Positions 11,754 to 61,928 of a stretch of 63,616 nucleotides of DNA are shown in pieces. This DNA comes from Myxococcales bacterium (GTDB taxonomy: Bacteria > Myxococcota_A > UBA9042). Positions within the stretch are counted from its first letter, which is position 1. Each line of letters begins with the position of its first letter. The notes under the pieces were generated by a model that searched no databases, was not told the DNA's origin, and worked only from the letters and a program-made list of their open reading frames with translations. Where the stretch lies: contig SHZF01000020.1 in NCBI GenBank assembly GCA_009692425.1, positions 1 to 63,616 on the forward strand, read 5' to 3'. The position numbers and the translations under genes were made by a program.

Positions 11754-13796
11754 ATGACCCAGCGTGCCTACCTTACGACGCCCATCTACTACGTCAATGA
11801 CCGGCCGCACATCGGGCACGCGTACACGACGATCCTCGCCGACGCGGGCCGCCGCTTCCAGCAGTTGATCGGTGCGGAGACGTATTTCGTCACGGGCACT
11901 GACGAGCACGGCCAGAAGGTGGAGCAGGCGGCGCAGCGGCGCGGCATCAGCGCGATCGCCCACTGCGACGAACTCCACCGGTCGTACAAAGAATTGTGGC
12001 CGAAGCTGTACTGCGCGCCGGACCAGTTCATTCGGACGACGGAGCCGCGCCACGAGGCCGTCGTGCAGCGGGCGCTCCACCAACTCCTGGCCGCCGGGCA
12101 CCTCGAGGCGCGCGAGTTCGAGGGCTGGTATTCGACGGCGGCGGAGCGCTTCTGGACCGAAAAGGAGCTCGTCGACGGCAAGTGCCCCGATACGGGCCTG
12201 CCGGTGGTGCGGCTGCGCGAAAAGAACTGGTTCTTCAAGATGAGCGCGTTCCAGCAACCGCTCATCGAAGCGATCGAGTCGGGGCGCATGGAAATCCTGC
12301 CGCCGCACCGCAAGGCCGAAGTGCTCGGTTTCTTGCGCCAGCCCTTGCAGGACCTGTGCATCTCGCGGCCCAAGGAGCGCTTGCGTTGGGGCATCGAGTT
12401 GCCGTTCGACCCCGATTTTGTGACGTACGTGTGGGTCGATGCGCTGCTCAACTACGTGACGGCCATCGGCGGCCTCGACGCCGCTTCACCTCCGGAGCCG
12501 TACGGGCAGGCACCGGTCAGCGATGGCGAGGGCGCTCCATTCGCGACGTGGTGGCCTGAGGTGACGCACCTGCTCGGCAAGGACATCCTGACGACGCACG
12601 CCGTGTACTGGCCCACGTTGCTCATGGCGCTCGGTCTCGCCCCGCCGCGCCGCCTCGTCGCGCATGGCTGGTGGCTGATGGACGACACAAAAATGTCGAA
12701 ATCGCTCGGCAATGTGGTCGACCCGCTCGAGCTTGCGGACCGCTACGGTGTCGAGGCCCTGCGCTGGTTCCTGCTGCGCGAGATGACTGTGGGTCAGGAC
12801 GCCAGCTTCGGCGAAGCGGCCCTGGTGCGGCGCACGAACGCCGATCTGGCCAACGACATCGGCAACCTCGTGCAGCGCCTCGTCGTGTTGGCCGCGCGCA
12901 ACTTCGACGGCCGCGTGCCCACCCCGCCGACGGACCGGACGCCCAGCGCTGCGGTGCAGGAGGCCTTGATTTTTCGAGACGCCATCCTCGGCGACGCCCC
13001 GGTCGATGGGCCGGGCGGGCCTGGCGATGCGGTGCCGGCCGCTATCGACAAGTGGCGCCTGCACGTCGTGCTGGGCCACGCGCTGACGCTCGCCCGGAAA
13101 TGCAACGCGGCGATCGCGGCCGACGCACCGTTCAAGGCCGTGCATACGGACCGGCCGGCGGCGGCGCTGACCGTGTACCACCTGCTCGACTGCATGCGGG
13201 TGGTGGCGCGCCTGGTCGAGCCCGCGCTGCCCGACGCCGCGCTCGCCATGTTGCGTCGCATCGGCTGGAGCGCGCCGCTGCAGGACCTCGCCGACCTGCG
13301 CCACACGCACCTGGTGCCTGGATCGCCCGTGGTCGAGGGGCCACCGTTGTTTCCTCGCATCGCGCCGCTGGGCGTGCCGGTGCGCGTGAGTGCCCACGAC
13401 GTGCCGACTGCGCCGTTCGACCCGGCGCGCACCGGCGAGTTTCCACCCGAGGGGCCAGCGCACGCTGCGGCGATCGACATCGACCTGTTCGCGCAGCTCG
13501 ACCTGCGTGTCGGCACCGTGACTTCGGCCGATCGGGTGCCTAAGAGCCACAAGCTGCTGCGACTGCTCGTCGATCTTGGCGAGCCGTCGCCGCGCCAGAT
13601 TCTTGCCGGCGTCGCCGAATCGCTCGCACCGGAAGACCTCCTGGGTCAACAGGTGCTCGTGCTGGCCAATCTGCCGGCGCGCAAGCTCATGGGCCTCACG
13701 AGCCACGGCATGCTGCTCGTCGCCACCGATGCCGATGGGCGGCGAGTGCCGCTCCAGCCGCCGCGCCCAGTGCCGCCAGGGTCTTGCGTCGCGTAG
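11754..13796 (+). CDS. metG: Methionyl-tRNA synthetase
   Basis: 680 residues from the ATG at 11754, chosen because conserved sequence (YLTTPIYYVNDRPHIGH) begins five residues later; an ATG at 11736 is possible. It charges tRNA-Met. The HIGH motif is at residues 19-22 and KMSKS at 313-317 (DDTKMSKSLGN). The knuckle region reads GWYSTAAERFWTEKEL...GKCPDTG and retains only one of the cysteines that bind zinc in the related Thermus-type enzymes. The anticodon-binding helical domain follows. A C-terminal OB-fold tRNA-binding domain of about 105 residues (LRVGTVTSADRVPKSHKLLRL) is fused. The stop abuts a transposase relic on the other strand. Confidence 0.95.
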   Translation: MTQRAYLTTPIYYVNDRPHIGHAYTTILADAGRRFQQLIGAETYFVTGTDEHGQKVEQAAQRRGISAIAHCDELHRSYKELWPKLYCAPDQFIRTTEPRHEAVVQRALHQLLAAGHLEAREFEGWYSTAAERFWTEKELVDGKCPDTGLPVVRLREKNWFFKMSAFQQPLIEAIESGRMEILPPHRKAEVLGFLRQPLQDLCISRPKERLRWGIELPFDPDFVTYVWVDALLNYVTAIGGLDAASPPEPYGQAPVSDGEGAPFATWWPEVTHLLGKDILTTHAVYWPTLLMALGLAPPRRLVAHGWWLMDDTKMSKSLGNVVDPLELADRYGVEALRWFLLREMTVGQDASFGEAALVRRTNADLANDIGNLVQRLVVLAARNFDGRVPTPPTDRTPSAAVQEALIFRDAILGDAPVDGPGGPGDAVPAAIDKWRLHVVLGHALTLARKCNAAIAADAPFKAVHTDRPAAALTVYHLLDCMRVVARLVEPALPDAALAMLRRIGWSAPLQDLADLRHTHLVPGSPVVEGPPLFPRIAPLGVPVRVSAHDVPTAPFDPARTGEFPPEGPAHAAAIDIDLFAQLDLRVGTVTSADRVPKSHKLLRLLVDLGEPSPRQILAGVAESLAPEDLLGQQVLVLANLPARKLMGLTSHGMLLVATDADGRRVPLQPPRPVPPGSCVA

Positions 13797-30262: not shown

Positions 30263-31918
30263 TTGAACACGACGAACCGGACGATTCCGTCGGCATCGCG
30301 CGGTGCGGGCGTGGCAAGTTGGCTCTGCCTGTCGGGCGTGGCCACCGTTGTGGCGTGCGCGGAGCCGGCCCCGGCGCAGACCGCCGCCTCAACCACGGAC
30401 ACCACCGCTGCGGGCGCGGACGCGTCGGGCTCCGACTGCGCGGCGACGGATGCGAGCGGGACCGTCTGCGACGACGGCAACCCGTGCACAATCGGCGACA
30501 CCTGCACCAACGGCACGTGCAAGGGCACGCCGAAGCCTTGTGACGACGGATTGGCCTGCACTGCGGATACCTGCGCCGCAAAGGGGGACTGCGACCACGC
30601 CCAACTGCCTGCGACGTGTCGCATTGGCGGCAAGTGCTACGCCGGCGGCCAGAAGAATCCCACGGACGTGTGCCTGGCGTGCGCGCCGACCGCCAGCGCC
30701 GTGCAGTGGTCCGCTGAGGTTTCGGCGACGTGCGACGACGGCAGCGCGTGCACGGCAATGGACCGCTGCTCCGGCGCCGGCCAATGTGTCGGCGTCGCCC
30801 TCGTGTGCGACGACAAGAACGTGTGCACGACCGACACCTGCGACGCCAAGACGGGATGCGCGCCGAAACCGCTCACGGGCGCCTCGTGCGAAGACGGCAA
30901 CAAGTGCATCACCGGCGACACCTGCCAGGCCGGCGTCTGCAAACCGGGCGTGGGCAGCCTGCCATGTGACGATGGCAATGGCTGTACGCTGGACTCGTGC
31001 GCGCCGGGCCAAGGTTGCATCCACGGCTTGACGAAGGCCCCGTGCAACGACGGCGCAGCCTGCACGATGCCTGACTTGTGCACCGGCGGCACGTGCGTCG
31101 GTGTCAAGACGGGGCTGTGTCCCAAGTGCAAGCAGGGGTTCGGCCCCACGGCCGGCAAGCTCACCGTGTTCCAGATCGGCACCACAGGCCACAGCGGCGA
31201 CGGGCTCGACGTCGACGGCAACCCCAAGACCTGCGCGCCCAGCACGAACTGCTCGGCCGGCATCGACAACGCCGCGTCCGTGCTCGCCGCTTTCGTCAAC
31301 AAGCCGCTGATCTCGGCCGTGCTCGACGGCAAGCTCAGTTTCATCGCGGACTTCGCAGGCTACGTCGGCGAGGGCAAGCCGTTCACGCTGAACCTGTTCT
31401 ATGCCGAGCAGACGCCCGCCTCGATCGCCGCCAAGTGTGCACCGCTGCTCGACGCCTGCGAATGGGGGGTCGGCCAGGCGGGCTTCGCGGGCGACTGTAC
31501 GCCCAAGTTCTCGTTTTCAAATGCGATGATCAAAGGCGGCAAGCTCACCGCAGGTGGCAAGGGCACGCTGTTCGCCATGGACGCCGACCTGATCGGCGCC
31601 AAGAACGCGACGCTGTACGTGAAGGGCGCGCGCATGGAGGGCAGCGTCGAGATGAAGGGGGACGCGACGACCATCCAGAACTTCAAGGGCGTGCTGGCCG
31701 GCGCGGTGCCGAAGGAAGGCCTCGTCGACATGATCAACGCGCTCGACCAGACCGTGTTTGACCAACTCAAGCTCGACAAGGCGACCGTGCTGCTGTTGCT
31801 CGACGACGCGCTCGAACTGGACCTCGACATCGATGGCGACGGCAAAGGCGACGCTGCCTCGATCGGCATTCGCTTCTCAGGCGTGGGCGCCAAGCTACTC
31901 GGGACCAACGCGAATTGA
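30263..31918 (+). CDS. Cys-rich repeat lipoprotein with C-terminal beta domain
   Basis: 551 residues with a TTG start at 30263. GGAGGG lies seven bases upstream, while the earlier TTG at 30248 lies before this site, so it is not used. The lipobox is TVVAC followed by AEPA. Residues about 65-290 hold eight to ten CDDGxxCTxxDxC-type repeats. The last 260 residues are a cysteine-poor domain with FQIGTTGHSGDGLDVDGNP, a likely calcium-binding DLDIDGDGKGDA near the end, and beta-strand-rich sequence, maybe a lectin- or substrate-binding fold. It is probably an outer-surface protein like the other Cys-rich members here. Confidence 0.82.
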   Translation: MNTTNRTIPSASRGAGVASWLCLSGVATVVACAEPAPAQTAASTTDTTAAGADASGSDCAATDASGTVCDDGNPCTIGDTCTNGTCKGTPKPCDDGLACTADTCAAKGDCDHAQLPATCRIGGKCYAGGQKNPTDVCLACAPTASAVQWSAEVSATCDDGSACTAMDRCSGAGQCVGVALVCDDKNVCTTDTCDAKTGCAPKPLTGASCEDGNKCITGDTCQAGVCKPGVGSLPCDDGNGCTLDSCAPGQGCIHGLTKAPCNDGAACTMPDLCTGGTCVGVKTGLCPKCKQGFGPTAGKLTVFQIGTTGHSGDGLDVDGNPKTCAPSTNCSAGIDNAASVLAAFVNKPLISAVLDGKLSFIADFAGYVGEGKPFTLNLFYAEQTPASIAAKCAPLLDACEWGVGQAGFAGDCTPKFSFSNAMIKGGKLTAGGKGTLFAMDADLIGAKNATLYVKGARMEGSVEMKGDATTIQNFKGVLAGAVPKEGLVDMINALDQTVFDQLKLDKATVLLLLDDALELDLDIDGDGKGDAASIGIRFSGVGAKLLGTNAN

Positions 31919-31949
31919 GCGAGGCCGGCGCGCCTCGCCCCGCCCGCGC

Positions 31950-33551
31950 TCAGCGCCGTGCGACCCAGCGCGCCTCGCACAAGTCGCCCGATACGTGGGG
32001 CTCGCACGCGACGCCCTTGTCGGGATGCGCGGCGAGGTGGCGCAGGATCGCGAGCACCGTCTCTTGGTTGTCGTCGCCAGCGCCGACCGCACGGACGATG
32101 TCGGCCAGACCCAACGAGCGCCCGGCAGCCTGCACCGTCGCGTGAACGATCTGCTGCAGCGCGACGACGGCCTGGGCCGCCTTCTTGCCTGCCTCGACGC
32201 CCGGTTGGTGGTACGCGTTGACACCGACCAGGTGCGCGTACAGGCCGACCGCCCGCTCGAAAAGCGCAATGAGCATGCCGAGGCTGGCCGCGTCGAGCCT
32301 GTCGAGAGTCAGCGTGATCGACTGGCGCCCCGAATCCGTCAGCGCCCGCCGCGTGCCGCGCAAGAAGCCGAACAGGTAGTCGCCGCTCGTCACGCCCGGC
32401 TCGACCTCGACGACCGTGCGCTCCGGGGCGCGAGTTTCGAGCACTTCGATGAACGTGACGAAGAAGTTGTCGATCCCGTCTCGAAGCTGTTGGACATACG
32501 CGTGTTGATCCGTCGAGCCCTTGTTGCCGTAGACCGCCAGACCCTGGAACACTTCGCGGCCCTGCAGATCGTGACGTTTTCCGAGGGACTCCATCACGAG
32601 CTGTTGGAGATATTTGGAGAAAAGCTGAAGTCGATCGCGATACGGCAGCACCACCATGTCGCGCCGCCCCGCGCCGCCGGTCGCAGCGTGCCAGGCGAGC
32701 GCGAGCAGCATCGCGGGGTTCTGGCGTGCGGCAGGGACGCGCGTGGCAGCATCCATCGCGCGAGCACCCGCCAGCATCCCGTCGATGTCGAGGCCTTGCA
32801 GCGCCGCCGGCAGCAGACCGACCGCCGACAGTTCCGAGGTGCGGCCGCCCACCCAGTCCCACATCGGGAAACGCGCCAGGAAGCCCTCGCCTTGTGCATA
32901 CCGGTCGAGTTGGCTGCCGACTCCCGTCACGGCCGCGGCATGGCGCGCGAACGACAAGCCTGCGCTCTCGAACGCCGCCCGAACTTCGAGCATACCGTTG
33001 CGGGTCTCCTGCGTTCCCCCCGACTTCGACACCACGACGACGAGCGTGCGGGGCAAGGCGTCGCCGATGCCATCGAGCACCTGATCGATGCCGTCGGGGT
33101 CTGTATTGTCGAAGAAATGCACGCGCATGCGGTCGGCCGGCGTGCCGAGGCAAGCCGTCGCCAGTTGGGGGCCCAGCGCGGAGCCTCCGATGCCGACGAC
33201 GAGGACGTCCGTGAACTTCGGGGCGCGCTGCGGTCGGATGCGCCCGGCATGGACGGCGTGCGCGAACGCGCGCACCTGGGCCAGGGTGCTCTCAATGGCG
33301 GCACGCTGGGCGGGGGCGGGTGCCAACTCGGGTGCGCGCAACCAGTAGTGGCCCACCTGGCGGCCCTCGTCGGGGTTCGCGACGCTGCCCGCTTCGAGCG
33401 CGGCCATGTGCCGGAACGCGGCCTGGGCCTGCTCCTCCATCGCGGCGAAAAAGTCGGCCGGCCAGGCGATGCGGCTGACATCGACCGAGAGGCCAAGCGC
33501 GGCGTCGTGGAACAGGTGGGCACGAAAAGCGGCGAAGCTGGGCGTCGGCAT
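31950..33551 (-). CDS. pgi: Glucose-6-phosphate isomerase
   Basis: 533 residues, near the usual 540-550. It interconverts glucose-6-phosphate and fructose-6-phosphate in the cytoplasm. Family signatures are [30 protein letters not shown], the [20 protein letters not shown] region ([18 protein letters not shown]), the catalytic stretch [19 protein letters not shown] (Glu/His region) and [13 protein letters not shown] with the ring-opening Lys. It is convergent with the Cys-rich lipoprotein gene (31 bp between stops) and stands alone, without other glycolytic genes. Confidence 0.95.
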
Positions 33552-49653: not shown

Positions 49654-52572
49654 ATGAAGCTCCTCGAGACCCGCACATACCAAGGCCCGAATCTCTACGC
49701 GCACTTTCCGGTCATGCGCCTCACGCTGCAGTTGGGTCCGCTCGAGGCTCGGCCGTCCGCGACCTTGCCCGGCTTTTGCGACCGCCTGCTCGACCTGATC
49801 CCGACGCTGGCCGAGCACACGTGTTCCGTCGGCAGTGCAGGGGGCTTCGTGCGGCGCCTCACCGAAGGCGAGGGCACCTGGCTCGGCCACGTGCTCGAAC
49901 ACGTCGCGATCGAGTTGCAAAACCTGTGCGGCGCACGCGTATCGTTCGGCAAGACCCGCGGCAGCGGCGAGTCCGGCGAGTACCACGTCGTCTACGAATA
50001 CGAAGACGCCCGCGTCGGCCAGGCCGCCGGCGATCTGGCGCTGCGCCTGTTGCATCACCTGGTCGGTCCAGACTTGGCCACCGACGCGCCGTTCGATGCG
50101 GCGTTCGATTTCCCCGTGGAGCGCGACAAGTTGATTCGCGACTCGCAGCGGCGCGCGCTCGGCCCGTCCACGCTGAGCCTGGTGCGGGCCGCTGAGGCGC
50201 GCGGCATCCCGTGGTTGCGGCTCAACGACTACAGCCTCGTGCAGTTCGGCTACGGCAAGTGGCAGAAGCGCATCCAGGCGACCGTGACATCCGAGACACG
50301 CCACATCTCCGTCGAGATCGCTTCTGACAAGCAGGAGACGAACCGCATCCTCGCCGACCTCGGCCTGCCGGTGCCGAAGCAGGAGATGGTCTATTCGCTT
50401 GAAGACGCCTTGCGGGCGGCACGGCGCGTCGGCTGGCCGCTCGTCGTCAAGCCGCTCAACGCCAACCACGGTCGCGGCGTCAGCATCGGGTTGCGCGACG
50501 ATGAAGGTGTACGGCTGGCGTTCGACAAGGCCCGCGAACACAGCCGGGCCGTGCTGGTCGAGAGCTTTATCACCGGCGAAGACCACCGGATGCTGGTGAT
50601 CCACGGCGAACTCGTTGCGGTCGCCAAGCGCGTGCCGGGGCATGTCGTCGGCGACGGCGTCCACACTGTCGAAGAACTGGTCCACCTCACGAACCAGGAC
50701 CCGCGTCGTGGCATCGGCCACGAGAAAGTGTTGACACGGCTCGAATTCGACCACCAGGCCGAGCGCCTGCTCCAGCAATCGGGGGTGACGCGCACCACGG
50801 TCATCGAGGCCGGCCAGGTGCTCTACCTGCGCTCGACGGGCAACCTGTCGACGGGAGGCACGGCCATCGACCTGACCGACGTCGTGCACCCCGACAACGC
50901 CGAGATGGCCATCCGGGCGGCGCAGGCGATCGGGCTCGACGTGATCGGCATCGACTTCCTGACGCCCGACATCTCGAAAAGCTACCGCGAGGTGGGCGGC
51001 GCCGTGTGCGAGGTCAACGCCGCACCCGGGTTCCGCATGCACGTGGCGCCATCGGAGGGCAAGCCGCGCGACGTGGCGGCCAAGGTCATCGAGATGCTGT
51101 TCCCGCCGGGCACACCTGCGCGCATCCCGATCGCGGCCATCACCGGCACGAACGGCAAGACGACGACGGCGCGCATGCTGGCCCACATCTTCAAGCTGCG
51201 CGGCGAGACGGTGGGCCTCACCACGACCGACGGCGTCTACATCGACGGGCGCCGCACCGTCGAAGGGGACATGACGGGCCCGGTGTCGGCGCAGATGGTG
51301 TTGCGCGACCCGACCGTCAGCGTGGCCGTCCTTGAAACCGCGCGCGGTGGCCTGCTGCGGGCGGGCATGGGCTACAAGTTCCCCGACGTGGCGTGCTGCC
51401 TGAACGTCGCGGCGGACCACCTCGGCCTCGGCGGGATCGACACGCTCGACCAACTGGCGGGAGTCAAGCGCATCCCCATCGAGGTGGCGCGCGACGCCGT
51501 CGTGCTCAACGCGGACGACCCGCTGTGCCTGCAGATGGCCGACTGGAGCGAGGCAAAGCACGTCTGGTACGTCACGGTCAACCCGCAGCACACGCTCGTA
51601 CGCGAACACATCCGCGCGGGAGGCAAGGCAGTCGCGCTCGAGGGCGGCGTCAACGGCCAGATGATCACGCTGTACGACCGCGGAGCACACCTGCCGCTGC
51701 TGTGGACGCACCTGATCCCGGCGACGATCGAGGGGCGCGCGCTCCACAACGTGCAGAACGCGATGTTCGCCGCCGCGCTGGCCGTGGCCATGGGGGTCAA
51801 GCTCGACGATGTGCGCCACGGGCTGCGGACGTTCGACTCGACGTACTTCCAAAGCCCTGGCCGCATGAACATCTACGACGGGCTCGGCTTCAAGGTCATC
51901 CTCGATTACGGCCACAACCCCGCGGCAGTGCAGGCGATGTGCCGCCTCGTCGATGGCTTGCACCAAAGTGGCGCGGTGCCGGGGCGCAAGGTGTGCATCC
52001 TCGCGGCGCCGGGTGATCGCCGCGACGAAGACATCCGCCATGTGGCGCAGATCGCGGCCAAGACCTTCGATCTGGTCATCTGCCGCCGCGACGACAATCC
52101 GCGCGGCCGCAAGCCCGATGAAGTGCCGCGGATGCTGGAGAGCGTGCTGCTCGAAGCCGGACTGGCGGCCGACCAGGTGCGCGTGATCCCCTACGAGGTC
52201 GATGCGCTGCAGGCGGCGCTCGAAGTGTGCCGGCCCGGCGACGTGCTGCTGGCGTTTTGCGACAAGGTCTCGCGGTCGTGGAAGCAGATCATCTACTTCC
52301 ACGGCACGCTCGCCGGGCGCGAGGTCCGCATCGGCCCAGACGGAGAAGCGCGCCTCGCCGAACCGGACGGGGCAGGTCCCGGCGCGATGGCCGCGGGCCG
52401 CGCTGCGGTGCAAGGCCGCCAGAAGGCGCACGGCGAATCCGCAGCTGACGTCCAGCGCGACGAGTCCGGCGAGGACGCGGGCGGTGAAGGCCCCTTCGGC
52501 CTCGGGCTGCCAGAAGGCGTCGTGCGCGACGAGCGCGGCGTCCGCTTGGCCCGAACAGACGAAGCAGACTGA
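49654..52572 (+). CDS. cphA: Cyanophycin synthetase
   Basis: 972 residues. It polymerises aspartate and arginine into cyanophycin, a nitrogen and carbon reserve. The N-terminal domain starts LLETRTYQGPNLYAHFP. The ATP-grasp domain (about 200-480) has VVKPLNANHGRGVSIGL, SFITGEDHRMLVI and EVNAAPGFRMH and adds Asp. The Mur-ligase domain has its P-loop at residues 498-504 (TGTNGKTTTARMLAHIF), LETARGGLLRAG and ILDYGHNPAAVQAM and adds Arg. It is longer than the usual 870-900 because of a charged tail of about 80 residues after RIGPDGEARLAEP. The ATP-grasp-less paralogue follows 44 bp downstream. No cyanophycinase gene is in the window. Confidence 0.93.
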   Translation: MKLLETRTYQGPNLYAHFPVMRLTLQLGPLEARPSATLPGFCDRLLDLIPTLAEHTCSVGSAGGFVRRLTEGEGTWLGHVLEHVAIELQNLCGARVSFGKTRGSGESGEYHVVYEYEDARVGQAAGDLALRLLHHLVGPDLATDAPFDAAFDFPVERDKLIRDSQRRALGPSTLSLVRAAEARGIPWLRLNDYSLVQFGYGKWQKRIQATVTSETRHISVEIASDKQETNRILADLGLPVPKQEMVYSLEDALRAARRVGWPLVVKPLNANHGRGVSIGLRDDEGVRLAFDKAREHSRAVLVESFITGEDHRMLVIHGELVAVAKRVPGHVVGDGVHTVEELVHLTNQDPRRGIGHEKVLTRLEFDHQAERLLQQSGVTRTTVIEAGQVLYLRSTGNLSTGGTAIDLTDVVHPDNAEMAIRAAQAIGLDVIGIDFLTPDISKSYREVGGAVCEVNAAPGFRMHVAPSEGKPRDVAAKVIEMLFPPGTPARIPIAAITGTNGKTTTARMLAHIFKLRGETVGLTTTDGVYIDGRRTVEGDMTGPVSAQMVLRDPTVSVAVLETARGGLLRAGMGYKFPDVACCLNVAADHLGLGGIDTLDQLAGVKRIPIEVARDAVVLNADDPLCLQMADWSEAKHVWYVTVNPQHTLVREHIRAGGKAVALEGGVNGQMITLYDRGAHLPLLWTHLIPATIEGRALHNVQNAMFAAALAVAMGVKLDDVRHGLRTFDSTYFQSPGRMNIYDGLGFKVILDYGHNPAAVQAMCRLVDGLHQSGAVPGRKVCILAAPGDRRDEDIRHVAQIAAKTFDLVICRRDDNPRGRKPDEVPRMLESVLLEAGLAADQVRVIPYEVDALQAALEVCRPGDVLLAFCDKVSRSWKQIIYFHGTLAGREVRIGPDGEARLAEPDGAGPGAMAAGRAAVQGRQKAHGESAADVQRDESGEDAGGEGPFGLGLPEGVVRDERGVRLARTDEAD

Positions 52573-52616
52573 CAGCGATCAGATTGATCCTGCAAGGTTG
52601 CGGGCGCGGGGCAACG

Positions 52617-54335
52617 ATGCGCGTGGTCGAAGGTCGCCGCCTGACGGGCCCGAACCTGTATCTGGATGCCACGGGCGCTGCCGTCGAAGTCACGCTCGAT
52701 GCCGGTGAGGACGCCGCAAACGTGCACGCCCTCTGGCGCGCGCACCTGACCGACGGGCTGCACGCCTTGCACCTGCTGGTAGAAACGGCCGCCCCCGTGA
52801 CTACGCACCGGCCGCACGTCGGCGGCGCCACGCTGATCGTCGCTGCGGAAATCGACACACTGCACACGACGGTCGAGGTTGCCGAGTGGGCCGCCGCTGC
52901 CGTGGCCGACCCCGCGTCGCTCGACGGCGCCGGTGCGCTCGATGCCCACCTGCTGCGCTTGCGCACGCTGCTGGGGACCGAACAGAACCCGCGCAAGCCG
53001 GCGTGGCGCGACCGGGCGCGCGCCGAAGGGCTGCCATTCTTGTGGGACGACGACGCGGTCTCGATCGGCTTCGGCGACCACAGTCGCACCTGGCCCACCG
53101 TCGACCTGCCCGCGCCCGCGACGGTGGACTTGCACGCCTACGGCGCGATCCCGGTCGCGCTCGTCACCGGGACGAACGGCAAGACGACGACGGCCCGGGT
53201 GCTCGCCCGCATCTTGCGCGAGGCCGGCCACCGCGTGGCCCTGACGTCGACGGACGGCATCCAGGTCGGAGATGACCTCGTCGAGAGCGGCGACTTTACC
53301 GGACCCGTTGCCGCCCGCAGGGCCCTGCGCGACCCACGCGCGACGGCTGCGGTGCTCGAAACGGCGCGTGGGGGCCTGTTGCGCCGCGGGCTCGCGACAG
53401 ACCAGGCCGATGCGGCGATCGTGACGAACGCGGCGGACGACCACCTGGGCGAATGGGGCATCGACGACGCGTACCAGATGGCCGAGGCCAAGCTCATCGT
53501 CGCCAAGGGTCTGCACCGGCGCGGCTTGCTCGTGCTGAACCTGATGAACGCGCCGCTGGTGCTCGCCGCCGCCCGTCTCGGCCTCGACCGATCACACCGC
53601 CTCGGCTGGTTCGCGGTCGCGCCGTGGCCTTCGGTGGCCTACGCCGTCGAACGCGGCGAGCCCGTGGCGCTCGACAACTACGGCCGCCTGGTCATCGTCG
53701 AAGGCGGGCGCGAGATGGACCTCGGTTCCGTCGCCGACGTCCCGATCACGCTGGGCGGCTGTGCGCGCCACAACGTCGAGAATGCGCTGGCTGCGGCCCT
53801 GGCCGCGTATGGCATGGGGCTCGAAGCCGACCCGATCCGGCGCGGGCTGCAGGGTTTTCGGCCCGACGCGCGAGACAACCCGGGGCGGGCGAACCTGTTC
53901 CAGTGCAACGGCGCGACCTTGCTTGTGGATTTCGCTCACAATCCCGATGGCCTGCGGCGGCTCGGTGACGTGGTGCGCAAGCTGCCGGCCCGGCGGCGGC
54001 TGCTGATCGTCGGGCAGGCCGGCGATCGGCGCGATGCCGACGTGGCCGCGCTGTGCGACGAGGCCGTAAAGCTGGAGTTCGACCGCTACGTGCTCAAGGA
54101 GGCCTTGCACTACCTGCGCGGCCGTGCGTTGGGCGAGATGCCTGCGCTGCTGGCCCGCCTGTTGCGCGAACGTGGGGTGCCGGAGCGCGCGCTGGAGCAC
54201 GCAGCCGACGAGGGCGCCGCGTTGACTGTTTCGCTGGCATGGTTGCAGCCGGGCGACCTCGGGGTGTTGCTCGTGCATGACGATTTCGGTGCGGCGTTGC
54301 GGCAGTTGCAGGCGGCGGGGGCCGTGCCGATGTAG
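52617..54335 (+). CDS. CphA-related Mur-ligase protein lacking the ATP-grasp domain
   Basis: 572 residues from the ATG at 52617, whose N-terminus (RVVEGRRLTGPNLYLD) mirrors that of CphA. The short N-domain is followed directly by a Mur-ligase module: P-loop at residues 185-191 (TGTNGKTTTARVLARIL), STDGIQVGDDLVESGDFTGP, LETARGGLLRRG, NAADDHLGEWGI, LGGCARHNVENALAAA and VDFAHNPDGLRRL. The 270-residue ATP-grasp part present in CphA is missing. The order and spacing after cphA imply one operon, so it may be a partner or specialised ligase in cyanophycin-like polymer synthesis. Its substrate is not known from sequence. Confidence 0.85.
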   Translation: MRVVEGRRLTGPNLYLDATGAAVEVTLDAGEDAANVHALWRAHLTDGLHALHLLVETAAPVTTHRPHVGGATLIVAAEIDTLHTTVEVAEWAAAAVADPASLDGAGALDAHLLRLRTLLGTEQNPRKPAWRDRARAEGLPFLWDDDAVSIGFGDHSRTWPTVDLPAPATVDLHAYGAIPVALVTGTNGKTTTARVLARILREAGHRVALTSTDGIQVGDDLVESGDFTGPVAARRALRDPRATAAVLETARGGLLRRGLATDQADAAIVTNAADDHLGEWGIDDAYQMAEAKLIVAKGLHRRGLLVLNLMNAPLVLAAARLGLDRSHRLGWFAVAPWPSVAYAVERGEPVALDNYGRLVIVEGGREMDLGSVADVPITLGGCARHNVENALAAALAAYGMGLEADPIRRGLQGFRPDARDNPGRANLFQCNGATLLVDFAHNPDGLRRLGDVVRKLPARRRLLIVGQAGDRRDADVAALCDEAVKLEFDRYVLKEALHYLRGRALGEMPALLARLLRERGVPERALEHAADEGAALTVSLAWLQPGDLGVLLVHDDFGAALRQLQAAGAVPM

Positions 54336-59391: not shown

Positions 59392-61305
59392 ATGAGGGCG
59401 AAGATTCGACCGGCGCGGAAAGACGATCAGGCCCAAGACTGCGGGGCATGCACCGGGTGGGCGATGGCTTGTGCGGCGGCGTGTGTCGGCTTGCTCACCG
59501 TCGCATGCACCGCACCTCCCGACGCGGGTGGACCGTTGCTGAGCGTCGCGAATGTCATGGACGTCGCAGCGACCGACGCCGAGACGCCTCACGGTGCCGC
59601 AGAAGCGGGAGCCACGGCCGACGGCAGCGGGCAGGTTGGCGATGGCGCGGCGCTGGGGCCCGCTGACTCCGCGGTCGTAGGCGATTCGGTGGCCCCGTCG
59701 GCCGAATTGCCCTTCGGCAGCGACACCGCCGTCTCTCCTGACCCGGACGCCACCCGCGCATCCGACTCCCCGGTCGCGGTGCCGGACGGAGGCTTCCCGC
59801 CCGACGGCAGCGTACCCGTCGATGACGCGGACGACGCCACGCCCCCCGATGTGCCGCTGGCCCAGGATACCGGCCCCGTACCGTGCAAGCTGGCGTCAGG
59901 CGAAGCGGTCGACTGCGATGACGGCAGCCCGTGCACGGAAGACAAGTGCGACCCCATCAAGGGCTGTCTGTGGCTCGGCAAGCCCGACGGCACGCCGTGT
60001 AGCGGCGCCAACAAGTGCGCGGGACCTCTGGCTTGCAAGATCGGCAAGTGCATGGCGACGGCCACAGCCCCAGCCCCCACGTGCGACGACAAGAACACGT
60101 GCACCGACGACAAGTGCGAACCGGCAAAAGGCTGCGTGAACATTCCCATCGGCGGCGCCAAGTGCACGGGCCCGCTCGACGGCAGTCCGTGCACGACGGG
60201 CGCGGTCGGTTGCCAGCCGGGAGGCAAGTGCAGCGAGCCGCCGACGCCGGGCTGGCTCTGCTGCGGCGACCCGTTCGGTGCAGCGTGCGACCCCGAAACC
60301 GCGGGCTGGGGCATTGCCGGAGACGCCGCGCGCGCGTCGAAGGTCGCCGACGTGGGTTCGCCGACGGGCGGCGCGGACTTCCTCGTCCTGGGCACGCAGC
60401 CGAGCGAGTTGAAGATCGATGGCAGCGCTGCGCGTACCTGGCCTTCGCTGCAATCGACGAGCGGCTCGCTCGACTTCTGGCTGCTCGTCGTCAGCGAGGA
60501 GTTTGTCGACAAGTGTGGCGATCAGGCCTACCAGGACTCGCTGACGGTCACGATCGGTGGCAAGATGGCATTCACCGTCACCGTCGGCGATTTCTGCAAG
60601 GCGGGCACTGCATCGGGCGCCAAGGGCACCTACCCGGCGGGCCTCTACGAGGTCAGCGCGCAGATCACCGGCAAGGCGGCCAAGCGCACGCCATGGCTGA
60701 AGTTCTCGGTCCCGCTCAGCGGTCTGGCCGGTGCGGAGCCCGTCAAAGTCGGCTTCGTCGCGAAGGCGGTCGGAGACCAGAAGATGCGCACGGTCTTCTT
60801 TCTCGACGGAATCGATGTGCTGGGCGCCACAAAGTCCACCTGCCTCGCCGCCGGCACCGCGCCAGACTGCTGCACACCTGCCTTTGCCTGCGACGCCTGC
60901 AAGGGCGGGGCCTGCGCCTCGTGTTTCAATGGCGACTGCGACGGCGACGGCGTGCTGAACGTGAAAGACAACTGCCCGACCACCGCCAACGCCGAACAGG
61001 CCAACAAGGACGGCGACGCGCTGGGCGACGTCTGCGATCCGTCCTCGTGCATCGTCCACATGTGCACGGGCGCGCTCAAGCAGGCCTGTGTGCAGGGCGA
61101 CAAGGTCGTGGGCTGTTGCAAGTCGAACGACGACTGCCAGGACGGCGACCTGTGCACCGTGCCGACCTGTTCGACCGGCAGTTGCGTGACGAAGCTGGCC
61201 GCGGGCTGCTGCAAGATCCAGGCCGACTGCAACGACGGCAAGCCGTGCACGAAAGACGAGTGCACGGGCGGCAAGTGCAAGTTCACCTGGATTTGTGGCA
61301 GTTGA
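59392..61305 (+). CDS. Cys-rich lipoprotein with thrombospondin type 3 repeat
   Basis: 637 residues from the ATG at 59392; other in-frame ATGs upstream (e.g. 59341) are possible. The lipobox is TVAC followed by TAPP. An Asp/Ala/Pro linker of about 130 residues follows. Then come three CDDGxPCTEDKC-type repeats, a cysteine-poor beta domain (about 300-480; WLLVVSEEFVDKCGDQAYQDSL) and a TSP3-like calcium loop (DCDGDGVLNVKDNCPTTANA). A Cys-rich end follows with CQDGDLC and CNDGKPCTKDEC. The modular plan resembles the lipoproteins at 9758-11686, 30263-31918 and 47379-49343. It is probably exposed on the cell surface; its ligand is unknown. Confidence 0.82.
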   Translation: MRAKIRPARKDDQAQDCGACTGWAMACAAACVGLLTVACTAPPDAGGPLLSVANVMDVAATDAETPHGAAEAGATADGSGQVGDGAALGPADSAVVGDSVAPSAELPFGSDTAVSPDPDATRASDSPVAVPDGGFPPDGSVPVDDADDATPPDVPLAQDTGPVPCKLASGEAVDCDDGSPCTEDKCDPIKGCLWLGKPDGTPCSGANKCAGPLACKIGKCMATATAPAPTCDDKNTCTDDKCEPAKGCVNIPIGGAKCTGPLDGSPCTTGAVGCQPGGKCSEPPTPGWLCCGDPFGAACDPETAGWGIAGDAARASKVADVGSPTGGADFLVLGTQPSELKIDGSAARTWPSLQSTSGSLDFWLLVVSEEFVDKCGDQAYQDSLTVTIGGKMAFTVTVGDFCKAGTASGAKGTYPAGLYEVSAQITGKAAKRTPWLKFSVPLSGLAGAEPVKVGFVAKAVGDQKMRTVFFLDGIDVLGATKSTCLAAGTAPDCCTPAFACDACKGGACASCFNGDCDGDGVLNVKDNCPTTANAEQANKDGDALGDVCDPSSCIVHMCTGALKQACVQGDKVVGCCKSNDDCQDGDLCTVPTCSTGSCVTKLAAGCCKIQADCNDGKPCTKDECTGGKCKFTWICGS

Positions 61306-61385
61306 CCCCGTAGGCATCCACGCGCAGGCTGGCACGCGCGGCCGTGCGAGAGAACGACCGTGTCGCACCTGACCCGGAGGTTTCC

Positions 61386-61928
61386 ATGTCGCTGACAGAA
61401 AAGCTTGCCCACCAGGCCGCGGCGGCCATCGCGGGCCTCGCCGCCGCGTGCGGAGGCCAGCAGCAAGCGTTGAAGCCCGGCGCGCCCGCGCCCGCCTTCG
61501 ATCTTCCCGGCACCGACGGCCACCAGCACAAGTTGGCGGACCACGTCGGCAAGCGCGCCGTCGTCATCGCGTGGTATCCGGCGGCCCATACCTTTGGTTG
61601 AACGCTCGAATGCAAGTCGCTCCGGGAGAGCGGCAAGGACATCGGGCAGTACGAAGTCGCCCTGTACGCGGCCAGCACCGACGCGCCCGCCGACAACCAG
61701 TCGTTCGCGGAGAAGTTGGGCCTCGACTACCCGATCCTCAGCGACCCGGGCGGCGCGGTGGCGAGCGCGATGGGCGTGCGCGGCCTGACGGGCATGGCCA
61801 AGCGGCACACGGTGTACATCGGCGCGGACGGCAACGTGCTGGCCGTCGACGACAACGTGAGCGTGCGGACGCATGGTGGCGACATTGCAAAGCGGCTTGG
61901 GGAATTGGGGGTCGCGCGGCGGCCGTGA
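61386..61928 (+). CDS. Selenocysteine-containing peroxiredoxin (in-frame UGA at codon 72)
   Basis: 181 codons (180 residues) if the TGA at 61599-61601 is read as selenocysteine; GGAGG lies about six bases before the ATG. Downstream of the TGA the same frame continues without interruption to TGA at 61926-61928. The protein is an AhpC/TSA/BCP-type peroxiredoxin: PGAPAPAFDLPGTDGHQH, VVIAWYPAAHTFG-U-TLECKSLRESG, then LDYPILSDPGGAVASAMGV and RHTVYIGADGNVLAV. The UGA sits exactly at the peroxidatic Cys, with a likely resolving Cys76 four residues on (UxxxC). A hairpin follows at SECIS spacing. It reduces peroxides with thiol help. A sequencing error at a Cys codon (TGC/TGT) is the alternative. A LAAAC segment near residue 22 could be a lipobox, though the n-region is poor. 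Confidence 0.82.
61616..61634 (+). promoter_or_regulatory. Candidate bacterial SECIS hairpin
   Basis: Downstream of the UGA (61599-61601) the RNA can fold GUCGCUC / GAGCGGC, seven pairs including one G-U, around a 5-nt loop CGGGA (61623-61627). The loop begins 22 nt after the UGA and has a G in its first two bases. This agrees with the described bSECIS rules: loop within about 16-37 nt, short stem, early loop G. SelB would bind here. Confidence 0.65.

Follow-up and report, generated by a model that had tools for sequence, protein, structure and literature searches.

A probable selenocysteine-containing PrxQ/BCP-like peroxiredoxin in a Myxococcales draft genome

The peroxiredoxin locus described here contains an in-frame stop codon that, judged from sequence comparison, is almost certainly read as selenocysteine (Sec) at the catalytic site. 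The locus lies in a 63,616-nucleotide stretch of DNA from a Myxococcales bacterium (contig SHZF01000020.1; hereafter, the window), and it very probably encodes a Sec-containing PrxQ/BCP-like peroxiredoxin that is probably exported and possibly lipid-anchored, with the UGA decoded as Sec72 through a bSECIS hairpin and SelB. The reading frame, the pairing of Cys and Sec in the catalytic column, the conserved SECIS, and the Sec machinery of the genome are well supported by the sequences; Sec insertion, peroxidase activity, the role of Cys76, and the cellular location are what we infer from them.

Reading frame, active site and predicted fold

The initial annotation described a single peroxiredoxin frame behind a well-placed GGAGG and ATG, and our analysis recovered one AhpC/TSA frame that opens with the ATG at 61386, contains the TGA at 61599-61601 as its sole internal in-frame TGA and only interruption, and is terminated by a TGA of its own at 61926-61928 (Table 1). 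Translation with table 11 yields 71 codons and then a stop; past this TGA, the frame runs for 108 codons further.

Table 1. Features of the peroxiredoxin locus in window coordinates
Feature	Position	Strand	Basis
Shine-Dalgarno sequence GGAGG, 5 nt ahead of the ATG	61376..61380	+	sequence
Gene of the probable Sec-containing peroxiredoxin, 180 aa plus stop	61386..61928	+	frame, Pfam, alignment, AlphaFold
Candidate lipoprotein signal peptide, hydrophobic N-terminus ending in LAAAC (Cys22)	61386..61451	+	inspection by eye
In-frame UGA, predicted Sec72, at the peroxidatic position (P-x3-T-x2-U)	61599..61601	+	sequence, PDB homologues, family alignment
Codon of Cys76 (U-x3-C), candidate resolving Cys, kept in a subset only	61611..61613	+	alignment
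Putative bSECIS stem-loop, loop CGGGA	61616..61634	+	family conservation, covariation, criteria of PMC13188914

When the TGA was translated as a residue, the protein matched the Pfam domains AhpC-TSA (1.2e-26; PF00578 score of 93.5 bits against a curated cut-off of 26) and Redoxin (4e-17). The TGA had been placed exactly at the peroxidatic Cys, and the alignments bear this out: it occupies the column of the catalytic Cys in solved peroxiredoxins, such as 5epf ('TPGCTKEA'), and in 30 family members, across which P65, T69, position 72 (Cys or Sec), and R140, the conserved distal Arg, are invariant. The AlphaFold model had a mean pLDDT of 93.9, and its top Foldseek matches in the PDB were BcpB, Bcp1, BCP/PrxQ-like proteins, and AhpE; a PrxQ/BCP/AhpE-like fold is predicted with high confidence.

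Inspection by eye revealed that the orthologues start with signal-peptide-like segments, and that this segment ends in ...LAAAC in the window protein and in ...LTAAAC in the orthologue L061. The protein is probably exported, and the ...AAAC endings suggest that these two proteins are lipoproteins, so that the window protein is perhaps anchored by a lipid.

Orthologue family and bSECIS hairpin

We aligned the window gene with 29 orthologues (30 rows) that are 38-50% identical to it and come from other classes of the phylum. The TGA column holds TGA in 22 orthologues and TGC or TGT in seven, so that, with the window, TGA occupies 23 of the 30 rows; the column contains Cys or TGA codons exclusively and never Trp, and the pairing of C and U that an alignment was expected to confirm is found in 30/30 members. 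No further internal stop occurs in any aligned sequence, and the window gene ends at the same position as its orthologues. The region downstream of the TGA had been called fully conserved; the family pattern is indeed kept, but conservation is not complete, and the nearest relatives found are approximately 50% identical. These come from the wider phylum, and none closer was available for testing purifying selection: no orthologue was detected in 51 other genomes of the window's own class, and a search of the contig collection for close relatives returned a single distant match. No convincing conserved gene neighbourhood was found around the orthologues, the clusters consisting of antisense or overlapping ORFs or of unrelated neighbours in a few loci.

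In the tree, the clade separates from four PrxQ-like outgroup rows with a support of 100/100. The Cys forms appear in more than one place, and the inner branches are poorly resolved; this pattern is consistent with two or more exchanges between Sec and Cys within the clade, although the well-supported branches by themselves need no more than one. The U-x3-C spacing that the initial annotation had considered worth describing is real but finds no support as a hallmark of the group: a Cys at +4 is present in only 2 of the 23 Sec members (the window protein and L061) and in four of the seven Cys members.

A 7-bp hairpin with the loop CGGGA had been claimed downstream of the TGA, and its placement was verified: arms at 61616-61622 and 61628-61634 form seven pairs, including one U.G, around a loop at 61623-61627, and a gap of 14 nt separates UGA and stem. 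Published bSECIS criteria comprise a loop of 3-9 nt, a stem of 4-16 bp, a G in loop position 1 or 2, a spacing of 16-37 nt, and a minimum free energy of -7.5 or lower (PMC13188914). The window hairpin agrees with these, having a 5-nt loop, 7 bp, a G at loop position 2, and -12.7 kcal/mol, and the 21 nt between UGA and loop agree with the spacing that had been proposed. Seven pairs also arose in 142/5000 synonymous shuffles of the window gene (an event of approximately 3%), the 40-nt fold had a z of -1.14, and a search of the window against Rfam returned nothing at the gathering threshold.

Taken alone, the hairpin of the window gene would be weak evidence; its conservation in the 23 Sec members makes the evidence strong. 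A stem of approximately 6-7 bp with a CGGGA or CGUGA loop is found at an unchanged spacing from the UGA in 23/23 Sec forms, all of which have the loop CG[G/U]GA and at least five of six inner pairs; all six pairs are formed in 21/23, and two members are mismatched at one inner pair. By contrast, the seven Cys forms retain 3-5 inner pairs, and none has the CG[G/U]GA loop. RNAalifold recovered the hairpin unprompted. Across the alignment, 94% of pair cells were formed, 12 cells had changed on both sides, and the covariation score was 0.229 versus 0.065 in shuffled alignments (0/500); both the cells paired and the covariation score exceeded those of all shuffles and all slid registers, and the signal collapsed on sliding. 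In the window gene and L061, CUC...GAG replaces the CUG...CAG found elsewhere; the two changes compensate each other and, at the protein level, also convert Asp to Glu. Codon choice follows the same pattern: the loop Arg codon is CGT or CGG in 23/23 Sec forms versus 30% in the remainder of these genes (p 1e-12), and the stem Ser codon is AGY (AGC or AGT) in 23/23 versus 36% (p 8e-11), both p values ignoring the relatedness of the sequences. The two Cys forms that retain the loop Arg use CGC.

Sec machinery of the genome and alternative readings

The draft genome to which the window belongs, as contig C21, comprises 4.94 Mb in 137 contigs and is 96% complete. The Sec reading had been held to need selA, selB, selC, and selD in this genome, and a search located all of them: SelB scored above its curated cut-off and carries an EF-Tu GTPase domain and a C-terminal SelB-wing_3 (winged-helix) domain, SelA was found at an E value of 2e-117, and there are two SelD genes and two tRNA-Sec(UCA) genes (74 and 72 bits), both called by ARAGORN. 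The two tRNA-Sec genes differ clearly in sequence (L093:3046-3138, minus strand; L094:4466-4558, minus strand). One member of the SelD pair (L095:1-1980, plus strand; L096:2248-3555, minus strand) has an N-terminal pyridine-nucleotide-disulphide oxidoreductase fusion.

NuoB resembled a different family a little more than its own (77-81% vs 67-77%), a result that is ambiguous alone but raised the question of contig contamination. Two tests led us to reject this, placing the contig in its own genome: the seven top-ranking cyanophycin-synthetase matches all came from the genome's own family, and the tetranucleotide correlation between the contig and other contigs of the genome was r 0.93. According to the ORF translations, the cyanophycin synthetase is followed directly by a second, Mur-ligase-like gene related to it (window 49654-54335). 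The gene upstream of the peroxiredoxin (approximately 59500-61305, plus strand) ends 80 nt before it and encodes an exported-looking product with repeated Cys-rich motifs, and nuoA, nuoB, and nuoC lie downstream.

A sequencing or assembly error, with TGC or TGT as the true codon of an ordinary Cys peroxiredoxin, would be compatible with a draft of 137 contigs and with the seven family members that carry these codons. However, 22 orthologues in other genomes share the TGA at this codon and carry a SECIS that is missing from the Cys forms, which makes a base-call error very unlikely. Marginally less probable still is a pseudogene that arose through a nonsense mutation, or a truncated gene with an independent ORF behind it: although conventional translation ends early, the codons past the TGA preserve the family-invariant residues and a stop placed as in the orthologues, the only interruption falls on the catalytic residue, and TGA also stands at redox positions in two further superfamily members encoded by this genome. 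Recoding of the TGA as another residue such as Trp, or nonspecific readthrough, has nothing in its favor beyond the open frame; we regard it as the least probable of these readings, given the absence of Trp from the column, the complete Sec machinery and bSECIS, and the use of TGA as the terminator of the gene itself.

One of the two further TGA-containing superfamily members is a second Sec peroxiredoxin candidate (L097, G000:C20, approximately 13065-13406, minus strand; also L005), which reads FYPAAQTSGUTAEGCGFRD and is PrxQ-like with U-x4-C; the hairpin after its UGA has almost the same sequence as the one in L034, from another family. The other (L090, G000:C78, approximately 31682-31951, plus strand), a third TGA-containing member of the AhpC/TSA superfamily, is ResA/TlpA-like with the motif SWUGFC (UxxC), and its UGA is also trailed by a strong hairpin.

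Proposed mechanism and relation to known peroxiredoxins

In the Sec reading, the hairpin just after the UGA would bind SelB with GTP and Sec-tRNA(Sec), and the UGA would be decoded as Sec72. By analogy with other Sec peroxiredoxins, the selenolate would attack peroxide to form a selenenic acid, which may be reduced through a selenenylsulfide with Cys76 or directly by an external thiol; provided that Cys22 is either lipidated or cleaved off, Cys76 would be the sole Cys left in the mature protein. Because the 21 other Sec forms lack Cys76, the clade as a whole resembles 1-Sec enzymes that depend on an outside partner for reduction, Cys76 being an optional resolving residue. A bolder proposal, which we advance tentatively and consider rather doubtful, is that the clade constitutes distinct, undescribed exported Sec peroxiredoxins in which the Sec of the window protein and of L061 forms an atypical selenenylsulfide pair with the Cys located four positions further along the same helix, a resolving geometry unlike the C-x4-C of PrxQ.

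Sec peroxiredoxins (PF00578/COG1225, motif TxxU) have long been recognised and were first shown in Eubacterium acidaminophilum (PMC13188914, PMC1088965); three have already been reported in Anaeromyxobacter dehalogenans (PMC1794560). The window protein shares with this family the AhpC/TSA domain, the P-x3-T-x2-U active site, and a bSECIS directly after the UGA, but it matches the NCBIfam PrxU equivalog NF040737 only weakly (35.9 bits against a cut-off of 270), belongs to a separate, probably exported clade, and has Cys76 at U+4. Its best sequence and fold matches are PrxQ/BCP proteins, thioredoxin-dependent thiol peroxidases (5epf, 3drn, 5ima), yet it scores below the NCBIfam PrxQ/BCP cut-offs (69.1 bits vs 140 for NF006960; 64.1 vs 260 for NF053650). 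PrxQ enzymes with a local resolving Cys have C-x4-C, whereas the window protein has U-x3-C, with Cys at +4 and Lys at +5; most members of the clade lack such a Cys. The lack of a second Cys near the active site in most members resembles AhpE of Mycobacterium tuberculosis, a 1-Cys Prx of similar fold (TM-score by target 0.83-0.88); AhpE, however, is a Cys enzyme and is 27% identical to the window protein. The Prx-like thiol:disulfide oxidoreductases are Sec enzymes of the same Pfam superfamily, but their UxxC is missing from the window protein, which reads UTLEC. No paper on this clade was found in the literature searched, most subscription journals lying outside its reach.

The window protein is very probably a real selenoprotein of an already known kind, and its clade is also represented in further classes of the phylum. 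The accepted working of Sec peroxiredoxins is unchanged by this finding. In the window gene and at least 22 orthologues, standard annotation probably splits the frame where the catalytic residue lies. The clade provides a natural set of swaps between Sec and Cys in which synonymous codons reveal whether the SECIS is present or lost, and it is useful for studies of Sec-Cys exchange and for better annotation of selenoproteins.
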